DNA from: Macrotrachela quadricornifera
Lineage: Eukaryota > Rotifera > Eurotatoria > Philodinida > Philodinidae
NCBI GenBank assembly: GCA_022393335.1
Contig: JAJEKB010020615.1
Coordinates: 349,218 to 413,217 of the forward strand
Reading direction: 5' to 3'
Length of the DNA: 64,000 nucleotides
The notes under the pieces were generated by a model that made no database searches, was not told where the DNA came from, and worked only from the letters and a program-made list of their open reading frames with translations. Below are positions 7,028-62,234 of this stretch, piece after piece (within the stretch, counting starts at the first letter, position 1; each line of letters starts with the position of its first letter). The translations under genes were made by a program, and so were the position numbers.

Positions 7028-10000
7028 ATGAGAGGTCATGACATGAGAAGAACCACAGCAATGGAAGATGATCACGTTCCAGTCGAATTCACTGAGATCA
7101 CAGCTAATAATGAAGAGTCAAATGATCAACGACACATAATGAGCGAAAATATTCACATTCAGAGTGATTCATCGCACGAGTTTGATAGGCGACATTCAAA
7201 CATGAATGGAGAAGAAACACTTAATCAAACACGAGTGGCAGCAACAACCGAGGATTCCGATAATGCACCGGACAATTCTATGACAAGAAATCATCGAATC
7301 GTAGAAGTCATTACTGAAAGACCAAATTTGACAATTACGAATATTATTAATGATATTAGAGATGATGTCAATCCTATTATAGAATACGCTGCAGAGCCTT
7401 TGTTGCCACTTTCTAAAGCTTGTGCTCCGTTGATCGATATTGTTTACAATATATCCTTCTATGTTCAAAAGGCACTCGATGAAACACCAGAAGAACCACC
7501 TGATCGACTGACAATTGATGAGAGTGCTGCAATTCGACTCTACACAATCGAATGGGCAAGACCACATCGAAGTCTTTATTCAGTTCTCAATCACACTCTC
7601 ATGAATGAGGATCGTGAACATCTTCGCCCTTTTTTCAAGTATTTGAAACTATTTTTAACTGCTTTAGCCAAACTACCATGCATTCCACAATCAACTGTTT
7701 GGCGAGGAGTAACTAAAAATTTGAGTGCAGAATTTCCACCTGGTTCCTCGGTGATCTGGTGGGGATTTTCATCATGTACAACTTCTTTGACTGTGCTTCA
7801 AAACAATATGTATTTGGGTAGGGCTGGCAATCGGACATTATTTTCCGTAGAAGTCACTAATGGTCGAACAATACGTAATCATTCGCATTTCGTTACTGAA
7901 GATGAAATTCTTCTTCTACCTGGTACTCAGATGATAGTTCAATCACAGACGGATCCAGCACCTGATCTTTATATCATTCATTTGAAACAGGTGATACCGA
8001 AGGAAGTGCTATTAGAACCGCCATTCGAAGGTATTTTCAATCATTTATTTTAAATTAATATATTTCTACATTTAGGTGCACGCCTTTACCCTGACATGGA
8101 GTAAGTCTAATTGCATCTTTGTTTAATTGTATTTTGATGAAAATTTTCATTACATTTACCAGACGGCGCTGGTATCGAAAGAAAAGATTCATCATTTCGT
8201 TTTGTTTATTAACTAGTCTTTTGATTGGGGCAATCATTATTGGCTCTGTTTTAGGAACAAAATCCAATAGCAATTCAGCAGGTACGATTTTTGAGATTCT
8301 TTTCAGTTCAAAAGCATGCGACACTTCATTGTGCAATAGCTGACTAATTCATTGCACATGCATTGGAAGGGATTAAAACTATTAGACTATAGGGCGTATT
8401 CGACTTTTATATTTTCTTTGAGTAGACATACAATGTAGTCCATTACTTGTTCTTAAACTTCTTTATGGTGCATTAGAAATAATAAACGATGTAAAATTAC
8501 TGAAGTGAAATAACAAAATTTTCATAGGACGACTTGTTGCCTTACGATTTGAAGAGAAACTATACACTAATAAACCTACTATTGAAGTGTGTGTTAATCC
8601 TGATATATTCAAAAATATTTCTGCCGTTGCAGCGATCCACATCTCCGATGACATAACAAAGTCAAAAGTTCTTTATGAGGGGGTTTTTCAGTTGTACAAA
8701 TTCTAAAAATGTATCGTTGTAATGTTCATAAATGAACAAAACGGTTAAGAATTTCACACTGATAATTGCTGTCCAGTGTATTTGCAACATTGTCTACTAT
8801 TAGTACCCATATGCAACAGACCATTTCAAATTTCAAACTCTTATCGCACTGGAAACAATCCACTTTCTGCAGCACTAGACCACTTTAAGAACGACAGAGA
8901 ACTAGATGTGGCAGTTGCTAACTATGATGATAACACTATCACTCTGATGCTTGGCAATGGATATGGCGTCTTCACAACTCCAGGAAGATATACAGTTGGT
9001 AGGTCACCACAATCTGTCATATCAGCTGATTTTAACAATGATAAGAACTCGGATCTGGCAGTGGCCAATCAATGGGATAACACTATCAGTGTGCTGCTTG
9101 GCAGTGGCAATGGAATTTTTCAGACTCCAATAAACTATACGGTTGGTAAATTCCCAAAATTTGTCAAATCAACTGATTTTAACAATGATAACAAACTAGA
9201 TCTGGTAGTGGCCAACAATGACGACAATACCATCACTGTTCTACTTGGCAATGGAAATGGAACTTTTGAGACTCTAGGGAACTACAAAGTTGGTGGATCT
9301 CCACGTTCTCTGATATCAGCTGATTTCAACAACGATAACAATTCGGATCTGATCGTGGCCAATTCCAATGACAGCACTATCAGTGTACTACTTGGTAATG
9401 GAAACGGAACTTTTCAGACTCCAGTGAATTATATGGTTGGTACGTCTCCATACTCTGTGATAACAGATGATTTTAATAACGATAACAAACTGGATCTAGT
9501 CGTAGTCAATTTCGGTGACAACACCATTAGTGTACTACTTGGCAATGGAAATGGAACTTTTCAGATTGCAGTGAATTATACGGTTGGTACGTCTCCATAC
9601 TCTGTGATATCAGCTGATTTCAATAATGATAACAATTCGGATCTAGTAGTCGGCTCCCTTGTCGGCACCACCATCAATGTGCTGCTTGGCAATGGGAATG
9701 GAACCTTTCAGACTCCAATGAACTATACGGTTGGTTGGTCCCCACAATCTATGATATCAGCTGATTTCAACAATGATAACAACCCGGATCTGGCAGTGGC
9801 CGACCAATATAGCAACGCCATCAGTGTACTGCTTGGCAATGGAAACGGAACTTTTCAAACTTTAATGAACTATACAGTTCCTAATATACCAACCTCTCTA
9901 GTATCAGCTGATTTCAACAACGATAACAACTCGGATATGGCAGTGACCAGCAATGATGACAATACTATCACTGTGCTACTTGGTGATGGGAAGGGAATTT

Positions 10001-10878
10001 TTCAAACCCCAATGAACTATACAGTTGGTAGATCCCCGAAATTCGTGATATCAGCTGACTTGAATGATGATAACCACTCGGATCTGGTAGCGACCATCCA
10101 ATGGGACAACAGCATTAATGTGCTTCTTGGCAAGAAAAATGGAATTTTTCAGAGTCCAGTGAACTATACAGTTGGTAATGATCCATCTTCTGTAACATCA
10201 GGTGATTTTAATAATGATAACAAACTGGATTTGGCAGTAGCCAATTCCGGTGACATTACCATTAGTGTACTAATTGGTAATGGAAATGGGAGTTTTCAGA
10301 GTCCAGTGAACTATATGGTTGGTAATAATCCATCCTCTGTGATATCAGCCGATTTCAACAACGATAACAAACTGGATCTTGCAGCAGCCAACCTCCGTGA
10401 TAACACTATCAGTGTAATGCTTGGTAACGGGAATGGAACTTTTCAAACTCCAATGATCTACGCGGTTGGAAGATTCCCAAAATCTATGATATCAGCTGAT
10501 TTCAACAATGATAAGAATTCTGATTTGGCAGTAGCCATACAATGGGACAACAGCATCAGTGTACTGCTTGGTAATGGAAATGGAACTTTTCAGAGTCCAA
10601 CGAATTATACGGTTGGTAGTAATCCACTCTCTGTTATATCCGCTGATTTCAATAACGATAACAAACTAGATATGGCAGTAGTCAACAATGGCGACAACAG
10701 CATCAATGTGCTGCTTGGTGATGGAGATGGAACTTTTCAGACTCCAAGTAAGTATATGACTGGGGCAAGTCCATCTTCTATTATATCGGGTGATGTCAAC
10801 GATGATAACAAACCAGATCTAATTGTGACGAACAGCGCATCTGGGACCTTGTCTGTTTCTTTAAATGTCTGCAACTAG
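7028..10878 (+). CDS. Membrane ADP-ribosyltransferase with 14 FG-GAP/VCBS repeats
   Basis: Five exons (7028-8030, 8076-8100, 8163-8281, 8528-8693, 8820-10878) join in consistent phase to a predicted 1123-residue protein. Exon 1 is an R-S-E class ART with Arg226 in VWRGV, the serine motif FSSCTTS at about 247-253, and the E-x-E motif EDE at 291-293 before ILLLPGT. Known members transfer ADP-ribose from NAD to arginine or other acceptors. Exons 2-3 encode a basic stretch (RRWYRKKR) and one hydrophobic helix at about 352-374. Exon 5 encodes 14 repeats of about 49 residues, each with a calcium-loop motif such as DFNNDN..D and an LLGNGNGTF segment. Many N-Y-T and N-G-T sequons suggest a glycosylated outer domain. 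The basic flank predicts N-in topology: ART inside, beta-propeller-like repeats outside. The exon 4 borders are inferred from phase and splice signals only. Confidence 0.82.
8840..10865 (+). repeat. Fourteen 147-base coding repeats (FG-GAP)
   Basis: This is a direct tandem array within exon 5 of the preceding gene, with a unit of 147 bases (49 codons). Central units are most alike, and the first and last are the most diverged. Every unit stays in frame, so selection keeps the protein repeat. Unequal crossing-over would be expected to change copy number. Confidence 0.9.
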
Positions 10879-34541: not shown

Positions 34542-34744
34542 ATATGATTCAACAGAAAGAAAACAAGTTATATGTGTATATATTGAATACAACTTAGCGT
34601 CATCAAGTAACATCCATGGCCGCTAACAGAAATTTTAACTTCAATACAACAACAATCGAAAAGTTTCACTATTATCTACAGCAGAGATTATCTGCACTTT
34701 AGAGCGGGCAGACCCCGCTCACGCTTTTTTCTCATTACTCCATT

Positions 34745-35195
34745 ACATGACACATATCTGATTGTTAAAGAAACAACGCAAAAGTACTGAGTCAAAAGCA
34801 ATAAAGACTATTTAGCGACATACAACATCTGAAAGTCTAATTCACAATCTTTTTTATTATATTCTTTTATTTATTACATGAAATATGAGAATGCGTAGTG
34901 ATACACAATTGACGACAATAAAAAGCAAACATTTTTTTTGCATTTTTTGCTATAGTATTAAATAAAATACTGACAGTTTTATTTTCTTGTTTTATTATTA
35001 TTTGCACAATTCTCTATTATCAAGATATTTATAATAAATAAGGAAAATATATAGACTTTTTTACTTTATTTTACTCAATGTCCTAGTATTTCTATTGTTA
35101 TTAAGAACCTTCAAATATAAAAGTGAAAAGAGAAAAATCTATTTAAAAGCAAAGGTTTGTGTTTGTCTATTATTCTAATCTGTGTTCTCATCGAA
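34745..35195 (+). promoter_or_regulatory. Conserved upstream region of PGRP-ART gene A
   Basis: About 440 bases before the ATG are almost identical to 45584-46026, upstream of gene B, with only scattered substitutions and small indels. A TATA-like AAATATAAAAG lies about 80 bases before the ATG in both. Either recent duplication or gene conversion has kept the promoters alike, so both genes should be regulated alike. Confidence 0.6.
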
Positions 35196-38100
35196 ATGTT
35201 ATCATCATTATCATCAAATAATCAGGATGAGGAACAACATATCATTGATTCATTCTATCAATTATGTAAAAACAACGAAATACAGAAAGTTCAAAATATT
35301 TTATCTTCTATTGATGATATTAATATTATAAATAGAATCCAAACTTCAACTGGTTCAACATGTTTGCATGTAGCATGTTATTATGGACATAAAGAAGTGG
35401 TACAAATTTTACTAGAATCTGGAGTTCAACATTCTATTAGAAATTTAAGACATAATTTAACTCCTTATGAAGAAGCTTCAAGAGATGATATAAAACAATT
35501 ATTTCTTCAACAAAACAATTTATTTTCTAATAATGATTATAATTATATTGAATGGTCAATGATAGGAGATGATCTTCTTGGAAAACGACGAGAATTTCGT
35601 CAAGCTATTAATTTATATAGAACTTATGACAATCATCATTTAGTATCAAAATTATTAGCTGAAGTTATTCAATATTATTTAAATGAATATTTGATTAATC
35701 AAAATAATAACCGAGGCAATCCAGAAGATCATGTCACTCGTGAACAAATTGAAACTGTCGAAGCATATTTCAAAGAAGCTATAGAAAAACAAGATTATCT
35801 AAGTTATTTTATAAAAGCTTACACAGTATCAAGTTTTTTCCATAAAGTATTAAATAAGCATTTGGCTTTGTATGTATTACAATATTTCGATAAAACGAAA
35901 CATTTTGCATCAAATTATCGTCTTGTGAATTGCCTGGTTCACATTGTTACACTCTTAATTTATAATCCTAATTTATCAGAATATCAATATCAAGGTTTAT
36001 GTTATCGTGGTATGAGAATAACACAAAATGATTTAGATCAATATCAACTAAATCAACATATATTAAATCGTGCATTTTTATCAACATCAATTGATCGTCA
36101 AATTGCTGAAATGTTTGCTGGCGAAAGTCAACAATCTAAAATGAGATATACTCCTGAAAATCATTCGGCATTACAATATTCATGTTTATGTCAATATTCA
36201 ATAAAACAAGATTCAACAGCTATCAATGTGGAAAGTTTATCAACAAGACCAGAAGAAAAAGAAATTTTAATTATTCCATTTAGTGTATTTAAAGTAGTGA
36301 ATATAAAAAGAAATTATCTTTTGGATTCAAAAGCATCAATTTCAATTGAAATTGAATTAGAAGAATGTGAAGATACAAATGATAATAAAAATGAATTAGA
36401 AAGTAAGATATTTTGATCACTTATCTCGAGAAAAATAAATTCATTCAATTGTATTCGACAAATTTTTAGGTAGTGATACATCTAGAACATCATCATTCGC
36501 GTCATCTACTGACGATATTATATATATTGAAGGACATCAAAAATTTAACAACCAATCTACGACAACTTTGCAAAACCATCGAACATGGTCAGTAATTAGA
36601 TTTCGTTTATTCTGTATTCAATCGAAATAGTATGTTGAGAAACGTTTAAATTCAAAGTTTGATGATTTTTCGATTTTCTTTTTTCGAGTTATATCATGTC
36701 GAACTTAACTCGAACAATGACAACGAGTCTTTTCATTTTAAAGTTATCCTTGACTATTTCAAGAATGATAATTTTCAATGACATCTCATTTGAAATAGCA
36801 TTGGATTGCTTGGTATCTACAGTATCTTTCAAGTCTGAAAAACATTTTTTCTCTTGTCCAGGTTACACAAGCAACCTGTATTGATAATGGAAGGCTAATC
36901 GTATATTGCTGAAAATCGAGCGATTAAGAAAAAAAATACATTGTCGAAAATTCACTTAAACAAAATATTGCGAAAAGTCATATTTCGCAAATTATGCTAC
37001 ACGTATCCATTTTGGTATGTGAAGACTGGCGTTGTCATATAAAAAGGATATTCGATCATGCTTTCCCTTGAGTTTTGCTGCAACCCGGTCCAGTTACTGA
37101 CAGTAGAGATCAACAGTGATGGCACAGTCAGTAGGAAGAAGATTGTGGAGCTAATGGTAGTTACGGTGGGGCGTCATTAATTCCATACAAGCATTGACTC
37201 TGTGTTGGAGCTGATGTAGTGACAAATCATGTGGTATCCAAACTCCATATTTCCACGTTTTACCCAATTTGTGCAGATGTGTTTCCATTGTAGTATGAGA
37301 GCATCCAAGTCGTTCTGCTAAACACCGTGAAGTCATCCTGAGATCTCCTTCGATAAGCTGCTTTAAAAGGTCCATATCCACCTCTGGATAGAGTGTACAT
37401 CCTTGCTCATCGTGCTACATATACTGATTGTTGCTTTGCGATCTAAACAAAATTCATGAAGCAGAAATATTCAGAGCTCTCTACGAAGTGTCCTCATTTC
37501 TAATTCGAGATCCACATCTATATCCATAGTTTTGTTGTTATTCGAAAGATATTTGTGTTCCTTTTAATTAGGGTGATCCAAAAGTTCCCGAAACTGCACT
37601 GTATCTATTTAGAGAAACGGCATTCTGCCCATCTCTCTACGCCATATATTCGAGGTAGTTGTTGTGATATTACATGGGAAGTTTCATCTTTTTAACTCAC
37701 TCTTCAGATATCCTTTCGTACTAAACAATATGTATTGAATTTACCTTCTTGATTATTGCTTGAATTTGGATACTTTTTTGAGCCCTCAAAAACTTGAAAA
37801 CGTTACTCAGCGGTGAACAGATTTTATGTGATACCATTAGTGATTATCATACTGATATGTGCCATCAGAATATTGGATGAAAACTATTGTTAAAACTTGA
37901 GTCAACTAGAGACAGTAGCCCTCGAACCGACATTTAGTGTGAATAACCATCAAAAACACTGACATAGGTTACCTTCATAATGACTTTCGACTCATTATCT
38001 GGCATCTAGTAGTTTCTATAGAGGATATCAATCCTATCGATATTAGTGATAAATGTTTAAATTCATAAATAAAACAAATTGTCGAACAAAAACGCATCGT

Positions 38101-41100
38101 CATGGTCTAATCCAATCAGTTTCTATCATGGATTTTTTCAACAACATGTAAAATAATGTCATTATTAACTACAGAGTTACAGAAACGAAGTTAAACTTCG
38201 CCGAACATGTTCACCTTAGACTAGACGTCTATAATCTTAGTTGTTCAGATATATTCAGCATAGCCTCGATAAACAGCAGCTACAACAATTTAGTAGGGGT
38301 CGTAACCAAGGAGGTACATTGAATACCTATTGTTTACTTCGAAACGATATCTGAAGAGTGAGTTAAAAGGATGAAACTTCCCATGGAATATCACAACAAC
38401 TATCTCGGATATATGGCGTAGAGAGATGGGTAGAATGTCATTTCCCTAAATAGATATAGTGCAGTTCTGGGAACTTTTGGATCACCCTAAGTATATACCT
38501 TTAGTATGGCAACTTCTCAAACTTTCTCGATTGTTCTAGAAGATTTATAAAAAAACCCAAAGTTTTCTTGCTAATCTAATATCATTAAAACTGGACATTC
38601 AGCTATTACCAAAAGTCCACTACAGCTTGTATGGTACCTACAAGGCCATCATGAACATCTTAATTTTTCTCAAATCTATATGTTTCGTGCCTTTTATCAC
38701 AGTCAGCCTTTTAAATTGAAAATATTTCCGAAATATACAGCGGTTTCCTAGGAGACAATACACGAAAGTGGTGGCATATTTTACCAGAACACCTGTTCAA
38801 TCGATCTCTCAGATATCAATGAAACCATTCTGTTCTTCGGATATTGAATCTACAAGTTAGTACTTTTCTTTTTTTAACAATAACAGTTCAAGCATTAAAT
38901 TTTATAGGTATACAGTACCATTGGTACTCTGGATAATGGCACACTAAAAATTATCTTCCATTACGTTAAACCAAATCGGAAGATTTCGTACGTTCTGAAT
39001 GGTTCCATATACCTCTACTCCCATGTGTGCACCAAATTTTTCTCTAACGAGCAAGTTACACGCTCCAGCTTCGGAACGAAGTAGTATTTTATCCATTCAG
39101 AGTGTATGAAATCTTCCTATTTGATTTAACGTGATGGGAGATGATTTTTAGTGTGCCATTACATAGAGTGTCAATGGTAGTATATACCTATAAAATTTCA
39201 AGGTTAGAACTGTTGTGGAACGATTTCAAAAAGTGAAATTTTGAGCACTTTTATAACTCATTTCGGGTTACATACTGGCTAAAGTTCATTGAAATTTGAG
39301 AGGTCAATTGAGCACGATATGTCGTGGTTTTCGTATATTGACTCCTAGAGACGTACTGTAAATCTAAAGCTCGAGTTTTTTTAACAGTACTTATTTTTTC
39401 GACTGCTAATCAAAAGGGAAACTATAGTTGTGGACACAATAGTGCTTTCAGTTTTACTTGAGGGGAACTAAGACTTGGTGTCTTATCCAACAGAGTCTTT
39501 TCTCACGAATGATAGTTGATGCTATCCAAGAAATCGTGACTTTCACTCTCCTACTGATCTTCCAAACTTGTAGAGAAAAGCATTTTCTACAAAATAGTAC
39601 TAGTTTAGTCAACTTCTGACAATAGATTCATGTTAAAAAAGATCCAAAACGATATTTTTGAGCTCATTCCATATGATCGACTTGTCTTTTAGTAAAAATA
39701 AATAAAAACTATTCTTAAACTTGACAGATGCGAAAAGTAGTGTGCAATACAATTCTCTTTCTCATCAGAAGTTATTCGAAGCAAACAACCCAGAAATAAC
39801 CAAACGAAAAGGATCGTTTTCCATGTCCGAGTTAAATGTGACATGATATAACTCGACAAGAGAAAGTCGCAAAATTATCAAACTTAGCATTTCGAGACTT
39901 CTCAACATGTATGTTCTCTTGATTAAGTTTATAATGAACGAAATCTAAATACTGACTATATTAGGCACCTTTGGCATAATGCTCTATCGTACCACCAATG
40001 GTCTCTCAAACAGCGAAAATATTTGCGTTATGGCATTATTGGATTTTTGATTCTAGCTATTATTTTAGCTTTAAGTCTAACGTTTATTTTTACTTTCGTT
40101 ATTAAAAAAAATTCCACGAAAATTACTACAACCATGTCAATGCCTACAACCATGTCAGCGTGTACAACAAAAAATGATACTGACGTCACCGATCCATTAC
40201 CATCAGGTCAAAGTGACTCAATAGAAAAACTTGCCAGAGAAGCTCCTAACAAGCTAAAATGTGTAATCTTTCCTCAAATCCTTTAGCATACATATTTTCT
40301 TTTGTGAAATAAATTAGTTTAATTTTATTCTTTCCTTATTAGTAAGTAAAATCAGTGACTTTGAATTCAGATAGGACTATTCACTCGCTAATTCCATATT
40401 TCATCGACTTCGAGGGAACATGTAAAATTGAATTCTCGTTCAAAAAAATCGTCAAACTTGATACCTTCAGAATAAACTATTCCTTTAAAAAAAGTGCGAG
40501 AAATTTGTATCGTCTATTGAACAAATACAAAATAGACATATGTAGTGTTCATTTTTTATAGGTTGTCCTGATATACTAAATCGAACTAGCTGGAATGCGT
40601 GTTCATATACAACTCGTGATAATTTAACAACACTACCGGTTATGTATATTGTTGTACATAATGCTGAAAGTTCAATTGTGAATCAAGAACATTGCATTAA
40701 AAAAATAAAAGAATTACAACGTCAGCAAATGAGTTCAATGGATTGGGATGATATTGGTTATAATTTCATGATATGTGGTGGTAAAGATGACCAACAGAAA
40801 ATTTATACAGGTAGAGGATGGAAATATATTGGTGCACATTGTAAAGGTTATAATACTAGATCATTAGGTAAGAATAAGTTTTCTTCTAACTTTCTGTAAC
40901 AATAAATGTGAAGCTTTTATCAATTTGATCTCGATATTGTCATACTTTTGTTCGAAATAGATGTGTGACAATTCCTGATTACAGAACTGAACTGGTTCGA
41001 TTACCCAGTTCCTTTGAAAAGATATGGATCATTCTCATAAAAAGAGCCACCTCTAGTTCAAAGTCAATAAAATTTTCAATGAGTTTTGATATGTACAATC

Positions 41101-41406
41101 ATAAGAGTTTTATTTCTAAAATGTTCGATTATTCTCTAAATTGTCATTTCGAGATTTCAAATCATATACTTTTATTTTATGAAAGGTATTGGTATTTGGG
41201 GCAACTATACGAGTATAGAATCGTTGAACACATTTAAATCATTAATTCAATGTGGTATTAAAAAGAGTGATATTGTGAACAATTTTACACTGGTCAAACA
41301 TAAGGATTCCACAGATATTTATGAATATTATTTGGAATATTTTCGCAATAATTTTGATCTTCAATATAGCAATCAAGTCAGCGAGAAAACGCTTTTTTGT
41401 CAATAA
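35196..41406 (+). CDS. Ankyrin/ADP-ribosyltransferase with membrane helix and PGRP ectodomain (gene A)
   Basis: Five exons (35196-36402, 36470-36587, 39965-40206, 40562-40867, 41187-41406; the last acceptor may be off by one base) fit a predicted protein of about 697 residues. Residues about 49-107 are ankyrin-like (STCLHVACYYGHKEVVQILL). The ART core has Arg271 in CYRGM, the serine motif FLSTS at about 294-298, and E-x-E at 354-356 (EKE). A basic flank (KQRKYLR) precedes one helix at about 464-488 and a Thr-rich stalk. Residues about 524-697 form a PGRP domain: LPVMYIVVHNAES, DDIGYNFMICG, GRGWKYIGAHCKGYN and SLGIGIWGNY. His, Tyr and His zinc-ligand positions appear present (VVHN, GYNF, VKHK) but the Cys ligand is missing, so it should bind rather than cleave peptidoglycan. 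Predicted topology is ART inside, PGRP outside. Intron 2 is swollen to 3.4 kb by transposons. Confidence 0.83.
36985..37545 (-). pseudogene. Decayed mariner transposase
   Basis: On the minus strand, a start-like MDIDVDLELEMRTL region and LLHEFCLDRKAT are followed in other frames by the helix-turn-helix part DLLKQLIEGD...RCLAERLGCSHTT and GKTWKYGVWIPH. After HRVNACMEL...HRNY the frame jumps to LDRVAAKLKGKHDRI and LYDNA. The order matches mariner/SETMAR-type transposases, but the middle of the catalytic domain is deleted and several stops and frameshifts are present. Confidence 0.85.
37569..38491. mobile_element. 920-base mariner-like element with 150-base inverted ends
   Basis: The left end TTAGGGTGATCCAAAAGTTCC returns inverted at the right end (GGATCACCCTAA), and pairing continues about 150 bases on each side. 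The terminal sequence resembles mariner ends. The centre has no transposase, so it is non-autonomous and could have been mobilised by a mariner such as the adjacent decayed one. Confidence 0.8.
38905..39200. mobile_element. 295-base foldback MITE
   Basis: TATAGGTATA ends and about 100-base arms (sharing AATGGCACACTAAAAAT) surround a centre of about 90 bases. It is nested inside intron 2 of gene A. Confidence 0.8.
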
Positions 41407-41554
41407 TTCAACAGTATCCGGCTTTTGTCATATCATGATAACAAAGCAATAGATTAATAGAAGACATTTCAAACAAGATAATGATATGTAACGATAGCAT
41501 TCATCAAATGTAGAGGTGTTAATTTATATTTATGATTAATTTAATTTATGTGTA

Positions 41555-42655
41555 AATAAAATTCGATCATTTCTGTTTCATATCAAAAATAAAAAATTTT
41601 TTCTCCTTTTAATCTAATATTTCTTGATGAATCAAGTCTCAACAACCCAATATTATCAATTAAATAATATGTTATGATGATTCCTAGCTAGCGATACTAT
41701 TTCCTATGGATACTATCTAGAACCGACTGGGACTCTTGTGACCCTATTTGAGGATGTTACCTAGAAGTTTTTCGATTCTCCCTGGGGTTGTTTGGTATCG
41801 TGATCATGAATGCAATATTTTATTCCTATAATACATCTATGATTCATTGATCTTAGACTCATTAGACGCAGATCCGGTTACTGCCTCAGAAGAGATAAGA
41901 AGATTTCAGAAATGAAATTAATTCTAAATAGTGATTCGATGAACATCATCCCCAATTAGCGCTCAATTATCATATACAATATTTATCACATTATTAAAAT
42001 CAGATTTTTTTCCACAAAGAGTAACTTGATAAATTCCGTCTAATGGAATTCATTTCACAATAAAAACCATGATTTAAATTATCACAATACGAAAGCCTTC
42101 CTTTCTCTCCGGTATCTGTACGAAGAGTACAAAAACAGTTCAAACTATTAAAAATAATTCCATTAAACAGAGTTTGTTGAGTTAACCTTCGTGAAGAATA
42201 ATCTAATTTATTTAATGATGTAATATAAATATCATATATGACAGTCAATCCCCAATTGAAGGTGATATTCACCAGATAACTATTTAAAATCATCCTGATT
42301 TCCAAAACCTTCTTATCTATTCTAATGCAGAAACAAAATCTGCATCGAATGAGTCTAAGATCAATGAATCATACATATAATATAGGAGTAAAATATTATA
42401 TTCATGATCACGATGCCAAATAACCTCATGGAGAACCGAAAAACTTCTAGGTACCATCCTCGAATAGGGTCACAAGAGTCTCAATCGCTTCTAGATAGTA
42501 TTCATAGGAGATAGTACCGCTAGTTAGGGATCATCATACCATATTAGTTAATAGATAATATTAGGTTGGAACTTTATTCATCAAAAAATATTAGATTAAA
42601 AGGAGAAAAATTTTTTTATTTTTGATATGAGACAGAAATGATCGAATTTTAATTC
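41555..42655. mobile_element. 1.1-kb foldback element with 330-base arms
   Basis: 41555-41885 pairs with 42330-42655 over nearly its whole length; shared blocks include TTTTAATCTAATATTT, GTGACCCTATT and ATTGATCTTAGACTCATT. The roughly 440-base centre carries a 101-codon minus-strand frame (42305-42000) with four cysteines and no recognised family. It begins about 150 bases after gene A. Confidence 0.8.
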
Positions 42656-43504
42656 AATAAATTCCAACAATTAAATAAATGAAATTTAAAATGAATTTAA
42701 CTTTAATAGGAAGATGACACTCCTAAATCAGCTGTTATATTTGACATACAATATGTGCCTTTTTTTACAATGAAAAGCACAATATTCGGAAAAAATAAAA
42801 AAGAAAGTATGATGATGAAACTATAGAAACAAGTAAGATGTAATCAAGAAGATTATCCGAAAGTCACCTTATCGCCACTGCCGATAAACTTATGCATTGT
42901 TCGAGTACCACAATCCAAATGACAATCTCACTAAATGTTCTTAAATACTGATCGTAAAACACTACAGATGACGAAGAAAGATTTGACGCGATGCTTTTTC
43001 AATTACAGACTCTGCAGTATAGTGTAATGACTAAAAAGTTTGAAAAACAAATTTTCTTTCGCAACTTACTCCAATGGTAAGTAAGAAGAACGTCACATTG
43101 AAATGATTGTTTAGAAAAAGATCTGAGTTAAGTATAAAATTGTTCATTATTGATGCAAAGATCGTCCAGTAAGTTAGGAAAATAAGAAGGTGACTAAGTG
43201 CGAATCAGAAATTGTCCAGCATAATATATCCTGCATAGTAATATTGTTCACATTGTACTATCGATAGATGAATGTTTGATTAGTTTCTCTTTTGAAATGA
43301 TCGATTTCTGCATCACTAGTTGCACTGTGACACTTGTCAGCACATTAACTTTAATGTCAATGTATTGGAGATAAGAAAAGACATGAATAAGTTTATCAAT
43401 CGAATTGATAGGCTTATAAAAATATTAGCATTTGACTTGTAGTGTTCGAATCCAATTGAAAGAGGATGAAAATCATGGATTTTCCCTTAAGCTAGCGAGG
43501 ATAT
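42656..43504. other. Spacer, nothing recognised
   Basis: The first part (near 42720-42850) resembles sequence after gene B (50995-51060, around TTTGACATA), so it may be duplicated 3' flank. No gene was recognised. Confidence 0.4.
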
Positions 43505-43985
43505 AAAATGAAAATACTTGATGAGTATAAAGATGCTCCGATGTTGGTTTTTTTAGGTCTCATCCCTTCCGTGGATAAAAACTCAAGGAATGTTATGTCT
43601 ATATCCTATGTAGGATCTTAAGTTTCAGAAAAAATCGTATTTTCGAATTTTGATCTGAAACTTTGTGCATATAGAGACCTCAACTAGGCTAGTTTCCATA
43701 AGAAAATTTAGAAGTTCTCACCAAAGTCTCTTCAACATATGAAGCTTTCAAATTATAAGCCCTTGTCCAGAAGCAGTTATACAATATAAATTTGTTGAGA
43801 AATTCTAAATTTTCTTATGGAAACTAGCCTGGTTGAGATCTCTACATGCACAAAATTTCAAATCAAAATTCGAAAATACGATTTTTCTGAAATCTGAGGT
43901 TCCACAGAAGGCACGAGATTTAAAGAAACCAACATTGGAGCATCTCTATACTCATCAAGTATTTTCATTTTATACCATCGTCAGC
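43505..43985. mobile_element. 480-base foldback element
   Basis: GGATATAAAATGAAAATACT at the left returns inverted at the right. Arms of about 190 bases also share CTAGTTTCCATAAGAAAAT and the GAAAAATCGTATTTTCGAAT-like block. No coding capacity. Confidence 0.8.
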
Positions 43986-45583
43986 GTAGAGAAAAGTCCA
44001 TCATTTTTAACCACCTTCTTAAAATGTTTGACAAGAGAAAAATTGAAAAAGTCATGTGCTATGTAAGTTCAAATTTCAATATTTATGTAATGATTACCAC
44101 AAGCAAACTTTTGTTGCCAAATAGACACGGATTAATCTTACTTCGAATATCTCTGCTGCATCTATATAGTCCTTTTTCCTTTGCCTTTATAAGGTGCCGT
44201 CAAGTCCTTTCTTCTCAGCAAAACGAGTCAAATTTTACCTTTTTTGATTCGACCTGAGCATCTGAATTGATAATGTTTGAAATCTCTGAATCAAAGTTTG
44301 AAGGACATTCGACTAGTTCCTTAATAAAAAGTCATGTTATCTCAACTTTTCAATACTCATCAAATACTATGATAAAATCATAGAAAATTACTTTCAAAAA
44401 TTGAAACTTCTAGCCATCCATAGTCGATATGTACTGATTTGGTAGAAAGAAAAATTGCCGAAAAAAGTGGTAAAACAGTTTCAGTAAAAGAAAAGAATGT
44501 CGATCACATAACAAATTTTGAAAATTGAAATTCTCATTTACAGACATCAATAATTGCTTGAAGCGAATCTCGGTGCTCAATAGTGTCCTGTATGATTTGG
44601 TTTTCCAAAAATCTGTGGATAAATTGCAGAAGGCAACCATTGAAATCATCCAGCGCAAAAAAGAATTTATCGGCTTTCGAAAAGCATTTGTTAAACAATC
44701 TTTCTCTTGTACGGAAAAATACTTGATGATCAATGTATATCTCTTTCGCCCATGTATTAAATAATTGCTGATGTGACCAGCTGAGAATGGCACAATAGAT
44801 GTATTTCGACATTTTTCGTGGTATCATATCTGTACCATTCGTCTAATTTAACAATCAATCTCAAACTTTTTTAGTTAATATATTGGGTGATAGAGTGTCG
44901 AAAACTAGAAACGCTACAAAATAGTATTAACATGTTGGAAACAAGGTGAGGGGTGTGGGTGTGGATCTTTAGGCTTGCATCGACATCAAACAACACAGGA
45001 TCAGTTTTCAAGGCAAAATTTGTTCTTTTCCTAGAAAAAACGAGAAAATTTTGGTTTTGGGGGATATACATTCGTACATGCTCCTGCTTTCGCGAGTTCT
45101 ATATCCTGCATTCCGCTACATTCTCAGATTTCTAGATTTTCGTGCGTGTTAATCCAAACAGATCGAAATGCTTCGTACCTTGACCTACCCTGGAGAACTC
45201 TAATAGTTTGAACAATTAGTCGATCGATTTGAGAGCTTTGGACAACTCTACGATTCTAAAACTTACTCAACAACTATGTAGATAGTCGTAAACTAGCTTC
45301 AATCAATGTGAAGTTTCGTTTTCTCTGTAATCAAAAGAGGATTAACTTTGCATATATAGAATCTTCTTGAAGGCTAGTCTATACTGATGGACCCTCATAC
45401 TATAGCTCTAATCTTAATGAGGATGTTTCGCAGTTTTATGAAAACTTCCAGTTTCATCGAATGAACATTCGAAAAAGAAATGATTGGCCTAGCAAAATCA
45501 AACAAATTATATTTTTCACGTCAATCGGAATCAGATGCGAGTTCACAAAAATCGAACTGCGGAGAATTCTACTTCCTACAATG
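43986..45583. other. Spacer before gene B
   Basis: Overlapping frames on both strands at 44410-44827 have no recognisable similarity. A short GT-rich stretch (GGGGTGTGGGTGTGG near 44950) is the only other notable sequence. Confidence 0.4.
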
Positions 45584-46026
45584 CACATATCTGATTGTTA
45601 AAGAAACAACGCAAAAGTACTGAGTCAAAAGCAATAAAGACTATTTAGCGACATACAACATCTGAAAGTCTAATTCACAATCTTTTTTATTATATTCTTT
45701 TATTTATTACATGAAATATGAGAATGCGTAGTGATACACAATTGACGACAATAAAAAGCAAACATTTTTTTTACTTTTTTGCTATAGTATTAAATAAAAT
45801 ACTGACAGTTTTATTTTCTTGTTTTATTATTATTTGCACAATTCTCTATTATCAAGATATTTGTAATAAATAGGAAAAGTATATAGACTTCTTACTTTAT
45901 TTTACTCAATGTCCTAGTATTTCTATTCTTATTAAGAACCTTCAAATATAAAAGTGAAAAGAGAAAAATCTATTTAAAAGCAAAGGTTTGTGTTTGTCTA
46001 TTATTCTACTCTACGTTCTCATCGAA
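45584..46026 (+). promoter_or_regulatory. Conserved upstream region of PGRP-ART gene B
   Basis: Nearly identical to 34745-35195. The match begins abruptly at CACATATCTGATTG in both copies, which marks the left edge of the duplicated or converted block. Confidence 0.6.
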
Positions 46027-49000
46027 ATGTTATCATCAAATAATCAGAATGATGAACAACATATCATTGATTCATTCTATCAATTATGTAAAAACAACGA
46101 AATACAAAAACTTCAAAATATTTTATCATCTATTGATGATATAAATATTATAAATAGAATTCAAACTTCAACTGGTTCAACATGTTTGCACGTAGCATGT
46201 TATTATGGACATAGAGAAGTGGCACAAATTTTATTAGAATACGGAGGTCAGCATTCTATTAGAAATTTAAGACATAATTTAACTTCTTATGAAGAAGCTT
46301 CAAGAGATGATATAGAACAATTGTTTCTCCAACGAAACAATNNNNNNNNNNNNNNNNNNNNNNNNNNNNNNNNNNNNNNNNNNNNNNNNNNNNNNNNNNN
46401 NNNNNNNNNNNNNNNNNNNNNNNNNNNNNNNNNNNNNNNNNNNNNNNNNNNNNNNNNNNNNNNNNNNNNNNNNNNNNNNNNNNNNNNNNNNNNNNNNNNN
46501 NNNNNNNNNNNNNNNNNNNNNNNNNNNNNNNNNNNNNNNNNNNNNNNNNNNNNNNNNNNNNNNNNNNNNNNNNNNNNNNNNNNNNNNNNNNNNNNNNNNN
46601 NNNNNNNNNNNNNNNNNNNNNNNNNNNNNNNNNNNNNNNNNNNNNNNNNNNNNNNNNNNNNNNNNNNNNNNNNNNNNNNNNNNNNNNNNNNNNNNNNNNN
46701 NNNNNNNNNNNNNNNNNNNNNNNNNNNNNNNNNNNNNNNNNAAATTGAATTAGAAGAATGTGAAGATATAAATGATAATAAAAATGAACCAGCAAGTAAG
46801 AGGCTTTTTTCAGATAAAGCTAGTGACATATGCTAATTCGAATATAAATGGGCTCTTGACTGACTAATGTTACTACAAAAAGAAATAGAAAACATTAAAG
46901 TTTAGCTTAACAAAAAAAATATACACCTAGGAAAAAATTTTGTTTTTTTTCGCATCTCTTTTCTCTCCTTGAATAGATGTATAAATCAACATATATACAT
47001 TTACCTATGCTCTATCTCAATATGAAGTCAGAATTTTTTCAAAGTTATTTATTTTCATAAAAAAATATCTATAACAAAAAATATCTGTTTTGTGAAAGAT
47101 TATTTTTATTGTTTGCGCGTAGAATTCTTGCGCTGAACATCATTCATCTTACATCTTTTATCGTCAATGAAATGAGTCAAAAAAAGTCACATAATATTAA
47201 AAAAATTAAAGTTCTTACACGTTTATAAGCTGGTTTAACATATCGAGAAATTGGAAATCAGCTTGATGCTTCAAATGGTTGTATTAGTAACGCTGCCAAA
47301 AGAGAAAAGTTGAATTTACTACTGGAAAATCGTTCTAGTCAAGGTAGAAAAAAGATCGACTAAACCTGTAGAAGATCGAAAAACTAGTCAACATGAAATT
47401 TAATAAGTGGAAAATCAGTTAGTCCCCGAACAGTTCGTCGACGGTTATTTAATCCTGACTACAAAAGTTATACGTCCAAATGGAAACCGTACCGAAACTT
47501 CATCATCGTTCTGTCCGATTAGGATTTGCTCGTAAATATTCTGCTTGGTCTTTTAGTGAATGGAAAAATTATATTGATGGTATTAAATGTCACTTATTAC
47601 CATATATTGAAAAAATCTTGATTCAAATAGTTCATGGTATTATGCACAAGACAATGCACTTTGCCATAAGCTAAGTGTTACTATGAATTGGTTTAAAAGA
47701 AACAAAATTAAGATTTTGGATTACTCAGCTACATTATTTGATTTAAGTGTGATAGAAGATATAGGGGATATTATTGATAAGAAACTCACTAATTATCATC
47801 CAACTACTGTTAATGATGTTCAACAATTGATCCTCAAATTATGGACAGAAATATCTATTGAAACATGTATTCGTGTAAAAGGAAATACGTCATCAAAATA
47901 TTAATTCTATCTTGTTAAAAAAGTTATATAAATATTTATTCATCCTTATAATTTTGATCAGGTCAAAGAAACATTCTTTTATGAAAATAAATAACTTTGA
48001 AAAAATTCTGACTTCATACTTAGGTAGAGCATAGGAAAGTGCATATATGTTGATTTATAGATCTATCCAAGGAGAGAAAGAGAATACGAAAAAAATTAAA
48101 TGGTTTATGGCCAAAAAAAGTGAGCCCGACGCAGCGTAGACTCGAAATTTCGAGTTCATTTCACATTTTACCATCAAAATCAGTCCGTGTTTTCCAGATT
48201 CTATTAGATGATAGGTTTCCATCAACCATACTCCTGATATTATAAGCATAAACTGAATAAAATTTAGTGAATTAATTAATACTCAGCTAATTAGTACCTA
48301 CTACTTAGTACCTGGAAATAATTCTCAAAACAGAACAATGACACTTCCTGTTTCAGAACATCATTTTTCTGTATCTGCTTATTATAAATCATGAAACATG
48401 AACTTGAATTTATTGGTAAAATGTGAATGCGTGAATGAGCTCGAAACTTCAAGTTTACGTGTCAAGCTCACCGTTGTTGACCATGGTTTACGATATATGT
48501 CATTTGATAGAAGAAAACAATTTTCTACTAATTGATGTGTAGCATTTGCAAAAAAAATCTAAGTTTTTCAGGTTCGATAAAATGAAAACTCAACTAAAGA
48601 TGTGGGATTCGATTCAATGTTTTCTCCTCTATTTTCTTTGTAAAGTTCAGTGCACAAGATAAATGTTATTGAGTCTTCGAATAATGATTTTACATAGTGT
48701 GTCTCAAAAAAAAAAATAATTGTTTCGATTCTGTTTGTCACATTTTCAGATAGTGATATAACGCGAACATCATCATTACCATCATCTACTGATGTTATCA
48801 TACATACCGAACAAGATCAAAAATACAGCCAACGAAAATATCTTCTCTATGAAATCATTGGATCTTTGGTGTTAGCTATTATTTTGGGCTTAACTTTAAC
48901 ATTCATTTTTATTTTCGTTATAAATAAGAATCTTAGAACAACATCGACACCAGAAACAGGTAATGAGATTTTCAATTCACTACCAAGAGATAAAATGAAA

Positions 49001-50802
49001 ACAATAGAAAAAGCTTCCTAGATAAGCTCATAACGAGCTAAAATGTATAATCTGTCCTCAACTTCTCCAGGATACGTATTTTGATAGTTAAACAAATTAG
49101 CTAAATTTCAATCTTTTCTTATTAACAAATAAAAACACTGACTTAGAGTTCAAATAGAACAATTCACTCGCTAATTCTATATTTCATCAGCCTTCAGAAA
49201 GCATGTAAAGTTGATGCCTTAGTCAACAAATTAGTATAAACATGGTACATTTAGAGTAAACATATTCTTTCAAGAACATACTAAAAACTTGTATTCTTTA
49301 TTGAACAAGTATAAAATAAACATATGTAATGTTCATTTTTTGTAGATTGTCCCGATATATTAGATCGATCTCGCTGGAATGCACGCCCTTATGCAACTCG
49401 TGTCAGTTTACAAACATTACCAGTTACACACATTGTCGTACTCCATCCATGGGCTACAATTATGAGCCAAGAACATTGTATTACAAAGATGCAAGAATTT
49501 CAAAATACTCATATGAATACAAAGGGTTGGGTTGATATTGCTTATAATTTCATGATATGTGGTGATAAAGATGATCAACAAAAAATTTATGTAGGTAGAG
49601 GATGGGAATATATGGGTGCAAGTTGTAAAGAGTATAATGATAAATCATTGGGTAAGAATAAGCTTTCTTTTAACTTTCTAAAAGGATGAATCTGAGGTTT
49701 CTGTCAATTAGGCATAGCCAGTCATGGATCATCTTCACATGAGGAAAACTTTTAAGAGACAAAAATAAAGAAATCTGTTTCAACCTTTGGGATGACCTAT
49801 TTGTGAGTAACATAGGCTCTACCTAGTCGCCTCAAATGCATCGAAGAAGAAATATTTTGATTGATTTCACGGAAATTTTTCAATCTTGAATCTTGTTACA
49901 TTTTATTTTTGCTCAATAGTAGACAATTTGTAGTGTAATTTTATTCTTACAAAAAAACTAATATAATTGAGCCATAAAACTATCTTAGTGTCACTTGTAG
50001 ATTAGAAAAGAAATGAGTCCTTACCATGAAACTTTGGATTTTTAATTTCTTCAACTTTCGTCTTAAAACAATAAAAAAAGAAGAAATTCTGTAACGAACA
50101 GTATTTCGAATACTTTTATTCTATGTAAATGTGCTTGTTCGAAAATAAATTAATAATCTGAAAGTTTATAGAACGCTGCACCCTCTATGCATAAAATGTT
50201 AATTTATACGCCATTTCGTTCTGCATAGAAATGTTGAACTCTGGGATTACCTTGAAAGAAATCTCCATTTTTGAAATTCTGTAACAGACGATATTTTTTT
50301 TCAAAGCTCACTCTAGGCAAACAAAAATTTATGAAAATTCTTTTGGCAATAAATCTACATAATCTCTACCTATAATAAAAATTTAAGGAGCTTGAAAAAT
50401 ACTAGTAATAAATTAAAGGTACTACAATACAACAAAACGAAAATTCCATGACGCTGGTTTTGCTGAATTTGATCTGTATGATTATAAGGATTATGTTGTT
50501 GAAATGTTCTATTATTTTCTAAGTTTATATATCGAAATTTTAAATCATATTCTTTTGTCGTTTAAAAAGGTATTGCTATTATTGGCAACTATTCCAGTAT
50601 AAAATCTTTGAACACATTTAAATCATTAATTCAATGTGGTATTGCAAACAATAATATTAAAAAAAATTTTACATTCGTCAGAAATAATAATTCCAAATAC
50701 ATTTATGAATATTATTTAGAATATTTTCGCAATGATTTTGATCTTCAATATAGCAATCAAGTGAGCAACGAACAGGAATTTTGTAAATTGAGCAGTGTCT
50801 GA
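46027..50802 (+). CDS. Ankyrin/ADP-ribosyltransferase with membrane helix and PGRP ectodomain (gene B, gap inside)
   Basis: Four exons (46027-46795, 48750-48959, 49346-49651, 50570-50802) join in phase. The first 105 residues match gene A at about 90% and are ankyrin-like. The ART core is hidden by a 400-base N run, although gene A has 829 bases there, so the gap length is not real. The tail IELEECED resumes in frame. Exon 2 gives the stalk, a KYLLYE flank and a helix like gene A's (LAIILGLTLTFIFIF). Exons 3-4 give the PGRP domain (LPVTHIVVLHPW, GYNF-equivalent AYNFMICG, GRGWEYMGA, IIGNYSS). The His of gene A's VKHK is Asn here (VRNNN) and the Cys ligand is absent, so it is non-catalytic. The PGRP halves of A and B are only about 60-65% identical by eye. 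Intron 1 holds a Tc1 element. AATAAA lies at about 50920. Confidence 0.8.
46342..46741. other. Assembly gap (400 N) in gene B exon 1
   Basis: A run of N over the ART catalytic core. The second gap in the window is also 400 bases, so these are placeholder lengths. By alignment with gene A the missing piece should be near 830 bases. Confidence 0.95.
46935..48105 (+). mobile_element. Tc1-like transposon with 115-base inverted ends in intron 1 of gene B
   Basis: Left (about 46943-47085) and right (about 47980-48100) arms are inverted copies sharing TATAAATCAACATATAT, CCTATGCTCTA and ATGAAGTCAGAATTTTTTC. A decayed transposase lies between them on the plus strand. Confidence 0.85.
47172..47902 (+). 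pseudogene. Decayed Tc1-type transposase
   Basis: Frames must be joined across stops. The N-terminal helix-turn-helix reads GLTYREIGNQLDASNG; a SPRTVRRRLF segment and KLHHRSVRLGFARKYSAWS follow; then a DNALCHK-like D-N motif, NWFKRNKIKILDYSA and a tail with IIDKKL and KGNTSSKY. The order fits Tc1 elements. At least four stops or frameshifts interrupt it. The second Asp is discernible, the NPIE-like motif has decayed to a DLSVIED segment, and the first catalytic Asp is not evident. Confidence 0.85.
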
Positions 50803-60910: not shown

Positions 60911-61888
60911 TTAATTTTGGAAGCTGTTGACATTGATATTTGATTTGAGAGATGCTGCTGTTAACATTTCATCTTTAATAGAATTACTTGTATTCAAAAT
61001 ATATTGCACCATATCAGTCTTATCAACTGGTGTATTTTGCCTAAAAATTAACTGAAGTTCCATTGGTGACAATTCACGTGACCATAGCGCAACATCAGCT
61101 ATACAAACACCTGCGGAGCAACTGCGCACTAGAACATGATCGTTAAAATCTACTTTCTCTGGCATTTTCATTTCGTTTGTTTTATTAGCATTTAAATAAA
61201 ATTTGATCGTTGATTGTGACAATGAAAAAATTGCTACAGTATGATACCATTTATTCGTTTGCAACTGCTGGGCAATGACTATGTCGTTTTGTCGTCGTCT
61301 ATTCCAAAACTCGAAAAATGTATCAAATTTACCTGATGGTAAAAGCTGAAAGTTGAAAGAAAGAAAATATCGTTTACCATGACCAAAAATAAATCCCAAC
61401 GGCAGGTTAATGTAACTTGAATGATTACGCAGTAGCAACCAAAATGAAATTGTGAATGAATCCGTCACATTGAAATTACATCTTTTCTGAATGTACGTTG
61501 GTCTATCACTTGGAAATATTAAACATGGACGATTATCAACTGTGCCAATTTGCGGGTTAATTCCAGTTACATGAGTTCTGGGATGGTTTGCATCACAGCC
61601 TTTAGTATTATACAAGAAATCATCATTATTAACTGCTATGTCAGACGTAAAATTACATAGAACATCAAGATTTCTAGTAAGTGTACTCATACCATCATGG
61701 AAATATTTTTTAAGAAATCGTTCATTTCGAATCATTCTATAAAATTCTCGGCAAACATTACTTGAACGTAACAAATCACGTAATGATGAAATTGATAGAA
61801 ATATTTTTTCCCACATTTCTGGTGGTAACAATAGATTTGAAGGACTGGAAGAAGAAGATGGCATTGCTGTTCTTACACTAGTGGACAT
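60911..61888 (-). CDS. F-box protein with LamG/concanavalin-like domain
   Basis: An intronless 325-residue frame. After a Ser-rich start, residues about 20-63 form an F-box (LLPPEMWEKIFLSISSLRDLL, then the VCREFYRM helix). Residues about 115-285 resemble a LamG-like jelly roll: a GTVDNRPCLIFPS strand, FTISFWLLLR, WYHTVAIFSLSQSTIKFYLN, and VCIADVALWSRELSPMEL, the conserved closing block of LamG-like domains. The F-box should recruit Skp1-Cullin, and the lectin-like domain may select glycan-bearing or other substrates, by analogy with sugar-binding F-box proteins. That analogy is inference. The start ATG at 61888 is the first in frame. Confidence 0.82.
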   Translation of the reverse strand: MSTSVRTAMPSSSSSPSNLLLPPEMWEKIFLSISSLRDLLRSSNVCREFYRMIRNERFLKKYFHDGMSTLTRNLDVLCNFTSDIAVNNDDFLYNTKGCDANHPRTHVTGINPQIGTVDNRPCLIFPSDRPTYIQKRCNFNVTDSFTISFWLLLRNHSSYINLPLGFIFGHGKRYFLSFNFQLLPSGKFDTFFEFWNRRRQNDIVIAQQLQTNKWYHTVAIFSLSQSTIKFYLNANKTNEMKMPEKVDFNDHVLVRSCSAGVCIADVALWSRELSPMELQLIFRQNTPVDKTDMVQYILNTSNSIKDEMLTAASLKSNINVNSFQN

Positions 61889-62234
61889 TTGAGTTTAGTT
61901 AAATTTGAATTTGAAAATTGAAACACAAATAATCAAAATGATCTGAAAGTGAATAAGAATAAAGGGTTATGTTCAGAATTGTTATAGAATTATTGTAAAC
62001 GATAGTTTACAATCGTATACAGTAGGGATGGAAGAAATAGCAGTCACTCTTGTCATTTTGTTCCATCTTGTCTGACACTATATTCTCAAATACTCACCAC
62101 ACTTAAAAATGGTTTTCTTCGAAGAAGAATGCAGCGGTGAAAAACGAAAGACAAAAACCGTCGCTCAAAAGTAAAAACCGATTTTCATTTGATATAATCT
62201 GATTAGTTTATATAGATTTGAACTACTATCTATT
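61889..62234. other. Upstream of the F-box/LamG gene
   Basis: Promoter side of the minus-strand gene. CGATAGTTTACAATCGTATAC-like sequence near 61999 is a short imperfect palindrome. Confidence 0.4.

Follow-up and report, generated by a model that had tools for sequence, protein, structure and literature searches.

A 64-kb stretch of the genome of the bdelloid rotifer Macrotrachela quadricornifera (hereinafter, the window; part of contig C4238 of a 450-Mb assembly) contains two neighbouring genes, gene 1 and gene 2, that are predicted to combine in one polypeptide ankyrin repeats, an ADP-ribosyltransferase (ART) domain, a single transmembrane (TM) helix and a C-terminal peptidoglycan-recognition protein (PGRP) domain (Table 1). 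Judging from genomic sequence and from the proteins predicted in other bdelloids, this fusion is real and recurs beyond the window. It appears fairly probable that the products are type II receptor enzymes in which ligand-binding PGRP ectodomains control a cytosolic ART, and that they belong to a broader set of receptor-like ARTs.

Organization of the two tandem genes

In a hand-drawn model, gene 1 comprises five exons (35196-41406) whose junction phases (1, 0, 1, 1) all agree, and the joined frame runs for 682 codons to its stop with no internal stops. The same junctions were chosen by a custom spliced aligner with the homologue P0003 of Rotaria sordida and also with P0005 of Rotaria sp. Silwood1, both of which were obtained only once the hand model had already been drawn. 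Exon 1 matches the Pfam profiles Ank_2 (1.1e-7, above the cut-off), ART (PF01129; 1.1e-6, 28.6 bits vs a cut-off of 22.3) and ADPrib_exo_Tox (4.5e-7), and the residues of the R-S-E signature, which a first-pass annotation of the window had attributed to this gene, are complete. When PDB sequences are searched with exon 1, ankyrin dominates and no ART is named among the best 60 of 353 matches. Scanned unjoined, the two PGRP exons give no Amidase_2 match in Pfam; joined, they match this profile at 4.5e-9 (37.2 bits, cut-off 26) and retrieve 31 solved sequences from the PDB at E <=0.001, with bumblebee PGRP-SA at the top (2e-23). The conserved interval between the TM and PGRP exons was considered as additional coding sequence and rejected: an open reading frame (ORF) at 40346-40561 is open in gene 1 but has no counterpart of >=60 amino acids in gene 2, and the interval is therefore treated as an intron.

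The joined PGRP exons of gene 2 also pass the Amidase_2 cut-off of 26 (1.3e-7, 32.5 bits), so that the PGRP domain claimed for both genes stands, as does the single membrane helix with a basic N-terminal flank; the Thr-rich stalk claimed along with them is clear in gene 1 but very short in gene 2. The ART of gene 2 is unreadable in the window because the region in which it is expected consists of 400 N (46342-46741), and the automatic spliced model of this gene is distorted by the gap. The consistent phase from ankyrin repeats to PGRP that the first-pass annotation had described for both genes thus holds for gene 1 and for the two ends of gene 2, whereas the ART that it reported in the latter is not visible there and is found whole on contig C4396. 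This contig, taken as the other haplotype on the grounds of its likeness, carries the same tandem pair (denoted gene 1' and gene 2'), the main blocks being ~93-95% identical. The ART is complete in each copy, at 97% and 92% identity to that of gene 1, and so is exon 1 of gene 2' (C4396:736620-737817). The remaining near-identical pairs of loci are likewise read, from their likeness, as probable haplotype copies; both members of the C4891 pair lie on one contig.

Between the tandem genes, the 5' repeats are 94-98% alike vs 74-83% for the 3' repeats, a pattern suggestive of gene conversion or of a partial duplication in the recent past. The more similar part consists of the 5' ends and upstream DNA (34744-35507 and 45577-46329). 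The inverted-repeat element in intron 1 of gene 2 (46939-48100) holds a mariner-like fragment, recognized by eye.

In gene 1, an inverted-repeat element of ~3.4 kb sits inside the coding exon for the linker and the helix, with imperfect arms at 36582-36623/39921-39962 (79%) and 36615-36738/39802-39925 (76%). The junction 36591/40014 is a hypothetical one because the element interrupts an exon that gene 2 has whole. No target-site duplication was clear by eye in the flanks, although no systematic search for one was made.

Table 1. Coordinates of the predicted features of gene 1, gene 2 and a third ART gene in the window
Feature	Position	Strand	Description
Gene 1 exon 1	35196..36402	+	ATG, ankyrin repeats, helical region, complete R-S-ExE ART; exon ends at GTAAGA
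Gene 1 exon 2, first part	36470..36591	+	Ser-rich cytosolic linker (predicted); final ~16 codons supplied by inserted element
Gene 1 candidate element-derived intron	36592..40013	+	Comprises most of the ~3.4-kb element; GT..AG, phase 0 on both sides
Inverted-repeat element nested in the gene 1 element	37565..38493	.	Arms of 191 nt, 90%; absent from the C4396 alignment
Gene 1 TM exon	40014..40206	+	Basic flank RKYLRY, one membrane helix (hydropathy 2.95), Thr-rich stalk
Gene 1 PGRP exon a	40562..40867	+	
Gene 1 PGRP exon b and stop	41186..41406	+	
Gene 2 exon 1	46027..46795	+	Ankyrin start and last ART residues, N gap between
Gene 2 intron 1	46796..48749	+	Contains inverted-repeat element, arms 46939-47066 and 47973-48100
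Gene 2 exon 2	48750..48959	+	Linker, basic flank, membrane helix, short stalk; uninterrupted
Gene 2 PGRP exon a	49346..49651	+	
Gene 2 PGRP exon b and stop	50570..50802	+	
Third gene exon 1	7028..8030	+	ART PF01129, 2.4e-9, 37.3 bits; hand model
Third gene mini-exon	8076..8100	+	Hand model
Third gene flank/helix exon	8163..8281	+	Basic WYRKKR flank, membrane helix; like motif in homologues
Third gene ectodomain exon and stop	8804..10878	+	FG-GAP repeats

Recurrence of the fusion in bdelloid rotifers

In the first of the protein searches, all of which rely on shared 5-residue words, 133 proteins passed, and the 120 best were listed and classified with a PGRP profile built from 10 listed proteins and both window genes and an ART profile built from nine proteins and gene 1. 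Among the matches listed, both domains are present in 58 of the 120 proteins and the ART only in the other 62. The 58 fused proteins comprise two unnamed rows and representatives of eight named bdelloids, namely Rotaria sordida, R. sp. Silwood1, R. sp. Silwood2, R. socialis, R. magnacalcarata, Adineta steineri, A. ricciae and Didymodactylos carnosus, so that the ART-PGRP combination proposed from the window alone is found in other bdelloid proteomes. A helix is predicted by hydropathy between the ART and the PGRP domain in 37 of the 58. Another protein search gave 29 rows, of which six are bdelloid proteins and the other 23 are amidases that are unnamed or look bacterial. P0002, one of the R. 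sordida fusions, has two PGRP matches in tandem.

Within the M. quadricornifera genome, at least 122 ART-matching pieces were scored. Rotifer ART expansions may be mentioned in the comparative review that Aravind and colleagues devoted to the evolution of ARTs. Among the 18 stretches modelled outside the window, 12 encode an ART followed by a PGRP domain on one strand and in one spliced frame, several of these loci being near-copies of one another or of the window genes; one has a stop in the ART, one is cut by a contig end and one lies beside a long run of N. Two of the modelled stretches, L052 (C4472) and L055 (C4223), contain no ART but encode a helix and a PGRP domain; one of them has a stop, and both are possibly truncated relatives. 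PGRP alone is encoded in two further stretches, and the last two (C937_b and C4278_b) are uninformative because their models cover no more than the tail of the adjacent gene. The locus on C4891 has a compact ART-TM-PGRP organization with introns of 53, 67 and 61 nt.

Both window genes lack an in-frame ATG between the preceding stop and the start of the helix or PGRP domain, and the TM and PGRP exons therefore look internal. A midpoint-rooted phylogenetic tree was built from 38 PGRP domains, taken from 20 of the 58 fused homologues and from 14 copies in the genome itself that have an ART or a helix, together with 4 solo domains. Subfamily A, with 25 rows from three genera, forms one side of a branch and so does subfamily B, with 9 rows; the supports are 100/99 and 99/98, respectively. 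Chance adjacency or a one-off mis-join was rejected because of the recurrence across loci of the genome and bdelloid proteins. The proposal of the first-pass annotation, one polypeptide with the ART predicted inside and the PGRP domain outside, is thus well supported at the sequence level by the fused proteins, by the 12 further loci, by the compact C4891 locus and by the lack of an internal ATG.

Predicted function and alternative explanations

The catalytic residues of the ART were counted over 75 matches in 72 sequences, among the rows having a residue at the respective column: the Arg is found in 60 of 68, the Ser in 70 of 71, the first Glu of the ExE motif in 70 of 72 and the catalytic Glu in all 72. 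In R-S-E ARTs, an ExE motif at the catalytic Glu denotes arginine specificity. For the PGRP domain (79 matches, with the His columns set by alignment to amphioxus PGRP3), we take the zinc ligands to be two His and a later Cys. The first His is present in 37/71 rows, the second in 29/42 and both in 17/37, whereas the Cys is found in 0/36 of the rows long enough to show that position. Of the three ligands, gene 1 retains the two His but not the Cys; gene 2 has its first His off by one place and possesses neither the second His nor the Cys. As claimed at the outset, neither gene has a complete zinc site, and because of this, sensing rather than digestion is supported, again in line with the earlier suggestion; a digestive PGRP was rejected on the same grounds. 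Drosophila possesses non-catalytic PGRPs without the zinc residues, some of which are sensors (PMC3724876).

When five near-identical pairs were pooled (leaving out the gene 2/C4396 pair), pN/pS was 0.30 for PGRP and 0.19 for ART, and by this measure both domains are under constraint. Between gene 2 and its C4396 copy, dN/dS is 0.37 for the ankyrin part and 0.47 for PGRP. Among paralogues, the PGRP domains are less alike than the ARTs (61% vs 81% for gene 1 and C4385; 61% vs 93% for gene 1 and gene 2'), the latter contrast partly reflecting homogenised 5' halves because dS differs too (0.13 vs 0.38).

According to the positive-inside rule for membrane helices, the more positive flank faces the cytosol, and the ART is accordingly predicted to be cytosolic and the PGRP domain extracellular. 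In the 37 fused proteins with a helix between the domains, the mean net charge of the 15 residues before the helix is +3.9 and after it +1.5, the N-terminal flank being the more positive in 31 (with 2 ties), and N-glycosylation sequons on the PGRP side exceed those in shuffled sequences 1.88-fold (144 vs 76.6); because the 37 rows are related, both results are to be taken as leanings. From the ATG of gene 1, hydropathy (no dedicated program was run) gives no hydrophobic stretch before the ART, and P0003, P0005, P0006, P0002 and P0018 begin at a Met matching the start of the window genes. In this interpretation, the products of genes 1 and 2 would be type II single-pass membrane proteins, with a cytosolic N-terminal part consisting of ankyrin repeats and an R-S-ExE mono-ADP-ribosyltransferase, and the extracellular C-terminal PGRP domain would bind peptidoglycan fragments without cutting them. 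The binding, or ligand-driven clustering, would gather the cytosolic ARTs or release them, and the activated ARTs would use NAD to modify nearby membrane-proximal proteins, probably at arginines. The coupling from outside to inside is the least certain step, and peptidoglycan as the ligand, the modified target and the immune role are conjectural.

Several observations weigh against this interpretation. The joined gene models are predictions from genomic sequence, and that of gene 1 requires splicing-out of the 3.4-kb element. No helix is predicted between the two domains in 21 of the 58 fused proteins, and the ART arginine is replaced by Cys, Tyr or Gln in 8 of 68 rows. The PGRP domain of the C937/C4278 pair is near neutral (dN/dS 0.93), and relatively high values are also seen for the ART of the C4278_523k/C1212 pair (0.59) and, on 7 changes, for the TM exon of gene 2 compared with its C4396 copy (1.86). 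As for topology, sequons on the ART side are also above the shuffled count (190 vs 141.3, 1.34-fold), the N-terminus of one fused protein, P0091, is hydrophobic, and an ATG-less frame continues upstream of the start for 23 codons in gene 1 and 22-23 codons in gene 2. These upstream frames (35127-35195 and 45958-46026) hold the hydrophobic sequences SIILICVLI and SIILLYVLI, which could alter the topology if they belonged to an unseen exon and would otherwise be part of the 5' untranslated region. The predicted structure of a homologue is of moderate quality (pLDDT 67.8, pTM 0.46), and this check of the folds proposed for the joined protein yielded modelled ART and PGRP folds but a poor ankyrin part.

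That the fusion arose as an artefact of annotation or splicing, with adjacent but separate ART and PGRP genes joined by gene finders, appears very improbable, even though the models derive from genomic sequence, the proteins with an ART only outnumber the fused ones among the matches listed, and odd joins occur among the ART homologues (to a G-protein-coupled receptor in P0045 and to an aldo-keto reductase in P0058) that look like annotation errors. The same domain order is found at the 12 further loci and in proteins from eight species, in both window genes no in-frame ATG precedes the domain in the TM and PGRP exons, the introns of the C4891 locus are short (53-67 nt), and two PGRP subfamilies each make up one side of a well-supported branch. 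The PGRP domain could also be merely a tether that keeps a constitutively active ART at a surface, or a decoy that soaks up peptidoglycan, without transmembrane signalling. This explanation, which we consider unlikely, is compatible with the loss of the zinc site, with the greater divergence of PGRP than of ART (61% vs 81-93% for gene 1 compared with C4385 and gene 2') and with the precedent of Drosophila PGRP-LF, a TM PGRP that reportedly does not bind peptidoglycan and acts as an inhibitor of PGRP-LC (PMC3724876). However, fast change of the ectodomain over a conserved enzyme and the variety of ectodomains described below fit variable sensors better. The reverse topology, with the ART outside or in a vesicle lumen and acting on PGRP-held microbes in the manner of the vertebrate ecto-ARTs, is improbable given that the N-terminus of gene 1 from the ATG is not hydrophobic, that the basic flank of the helix is on the ART side in 31 of 37 proteins and that ankyrin repeats are usually cytosolic.

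Compatible with the receptor-enzyme interpretation, and possible although rather doubtful, is the explanation that gene 1 is dying, broken by the inverted-repeat element, and that only element-free copies work. The element lies within an exon and, if unspliced, the frame stops ~60 codons past exon 1 (ORF to 36630). Yet the element is common to C4238 and C4396, and in gene 1' both splice sites are kept and a 12-bp deletion preserves the frame (the automatic model of gene 1' passed through cryptic exons in the element, omitting the helix, and a hand model on the gene 1 junctions was used). Comparison of gene 1 with gene 1' gives dN/dS values of 0.11 for ART (Fisher p 4e-6), 0.48 for the linker and helix and 0.26 for PGRP (p 0.02). 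The constraint past the element therefore fits splicing, and judging from these ratios, the exons downstream are probably still constrained after the insertion; gene conversion between the copies could also account for the retention of the frame.

Other genes of the window and comparison with known systems

The window encodes a third ART gene (7028-10878, plus strand; Table 1), for which the exon phases of a hand model agree, with zero internal stops; its ORF at 8749-10878 matches FG-GAP_3 (1.3e-95, 12 stretches). The ART of this gene was not recovered by the search with gene 1 and is read as a member of another lineage. A search with its ART-helix region gave 67 proteins, with similar fusions in Adineta and Rotaria and one Sphagnum-labelled row that is taken for rotifer contamination. 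A helix is predicted after the ART, and none before it, in 26 of the 67, a count that may be low because the place expected for the helix is, in some rows, covered by two ART matches. Ten of the 67 were scanned against Pfam: the seven with a helix carry FG-GAP, laminin-G-like, PAN or NHL domains, and the three without it, which carry Kelch, Ig and LRR domains, may be soluble or badly modelled. Among the proteins of Adineta steineri, P0067 and P0068 combine ankyrin repeats, an ART, a helix and NHL repeats, P0067 also having a Thr-rich stalk and P0068 a Cys-rich stretch. In P0101, an ART and a helix are joined to a long stalk, again Thr-rich, and to LRRs; ankyrin repeats are not seen, the model of this protein beginning only inside the ART region. 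As far as these proteins, which are gene predictions, allow one to judge, the bdelloid ART-helix part appears to have been combined with varied ectodomains, namely PGRP, NHL, LRR, FG-GAP, laminin-G and PAN.

Elsewhere in the window, a 1748-amino-acid open frame (17026-22272, plus strand) encodes a DHX-type DEAH helicase (PDB DHX15, 2.5e-64) with apparent CCCH-type and RING-type Cys motifs, recognized by eye, and a C-terminal match to the PARP catalytic domain (9.6e-5, 22.4 bits) that is under the cut-off of 26.7. A single open frame on the minus strand (60911-61894) encodes an F-box and a laminin-G-like lectin domain.

The earlier statement that no immune receptor with such an architecture had been described agrees with searches of the open-access literature, in whose listed matches, and in passages of PMC12419801, PMC9533005, PMC12220480, PMC10809525 and PMC3724876, neither an ART-PGRP protein nor a receptor ART was found. 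Two of these sources report enrichment of an ADP-ribosylation term in Adineta vaga, in one case for genes over-expressed in a study of desiccation and radiation (PMC10809525) and in the other for genes lowered in spaceflight, where the authors speak of PARPs (PMC12220480).

The closest counterparts of the ectodomain are the transmembrane, non-catalytic PGRPs of Drosophila, PGRP-LC along with LF and LA. As in PGRP-LC, one helix is followed by a C-terminal PGRP domain in both window genes and in 37 of the 58 fused homologues, but the cytosolic part is predicted here to be an ankyrin-ART enzyme. The sequence [IV]Q[IVL]G, which we take to be the core of the RHIM motif used in IMD signalling, is present in 0 of 72 sequences, and an IMD-type receptor acting through this simple motif was accordingly rejected; a divergent motif could be missed. 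Drosophila PGRP-LF has two PGRP domains (PMC3724876), and P0002 resembles it in its tandem PGRP matches.

With regard to the enzyme, gene 1 shares with the R-S-E ARTs (ARTC, e.g., ART2.2) the PF01129 match and the R, S and E residues. The vertebrate ecto-ARTs (ARTC1-5) are secreted or GPI-anchored and have a signal peptide; unlike these, the ART of gene 1 is predicted to lie in the cytosol and to be linked to a membrane helix and a PGRP domain, with no signal peptide detected by hydropathy from the ATG, although the ATG-less hydrophobic stretch lies in frame upstream.

Animal pattern-recognition receptors signal via adaptors, kinases, caspases or TIR domains, and we know of none with its own ADP-ribosyltransferase, a chemistry best known from bacterial toxins and effectors. 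If an outside ligand indeed controls the ART inside, this would be a new output for microbe sensing in animals and would assign a role to part of the large set of ARTs encoded here. Bdelloid rotifers are regarded as asexual, and their resistance to microbes is an open question, which a large repertoire of changing ectodomains over a constant enzyme would make testable. There is perhaps an even chance that these proteins represent an undescribed receptor-enzyme class, receptor ADP-ribosyltransferases, that is, type II ARTs with swappable microbe- or glycan-sensing ectodomains that form large, fast-changing families and would be an animal counterpart of the plant receptor kinases. The bdelloid ART proteins with NHL, LRR, FG-GAP, laminin-G and PAN domains have the same order of ART, helix and C-terminal ectodomain and differ in the latter, the FG-GAP, laminin-G and PAN examples having been found with the ART of the third gene rather than that of gene 1. 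As in plant receptor-like kinases, a variable ectodomain, one helix and a conserved cytosolic enzyme are encoded by many paralogues; in contrast to them, the kinase is replaced by an NAD-dependent ART, and the N-terminus is predicted to be inside.

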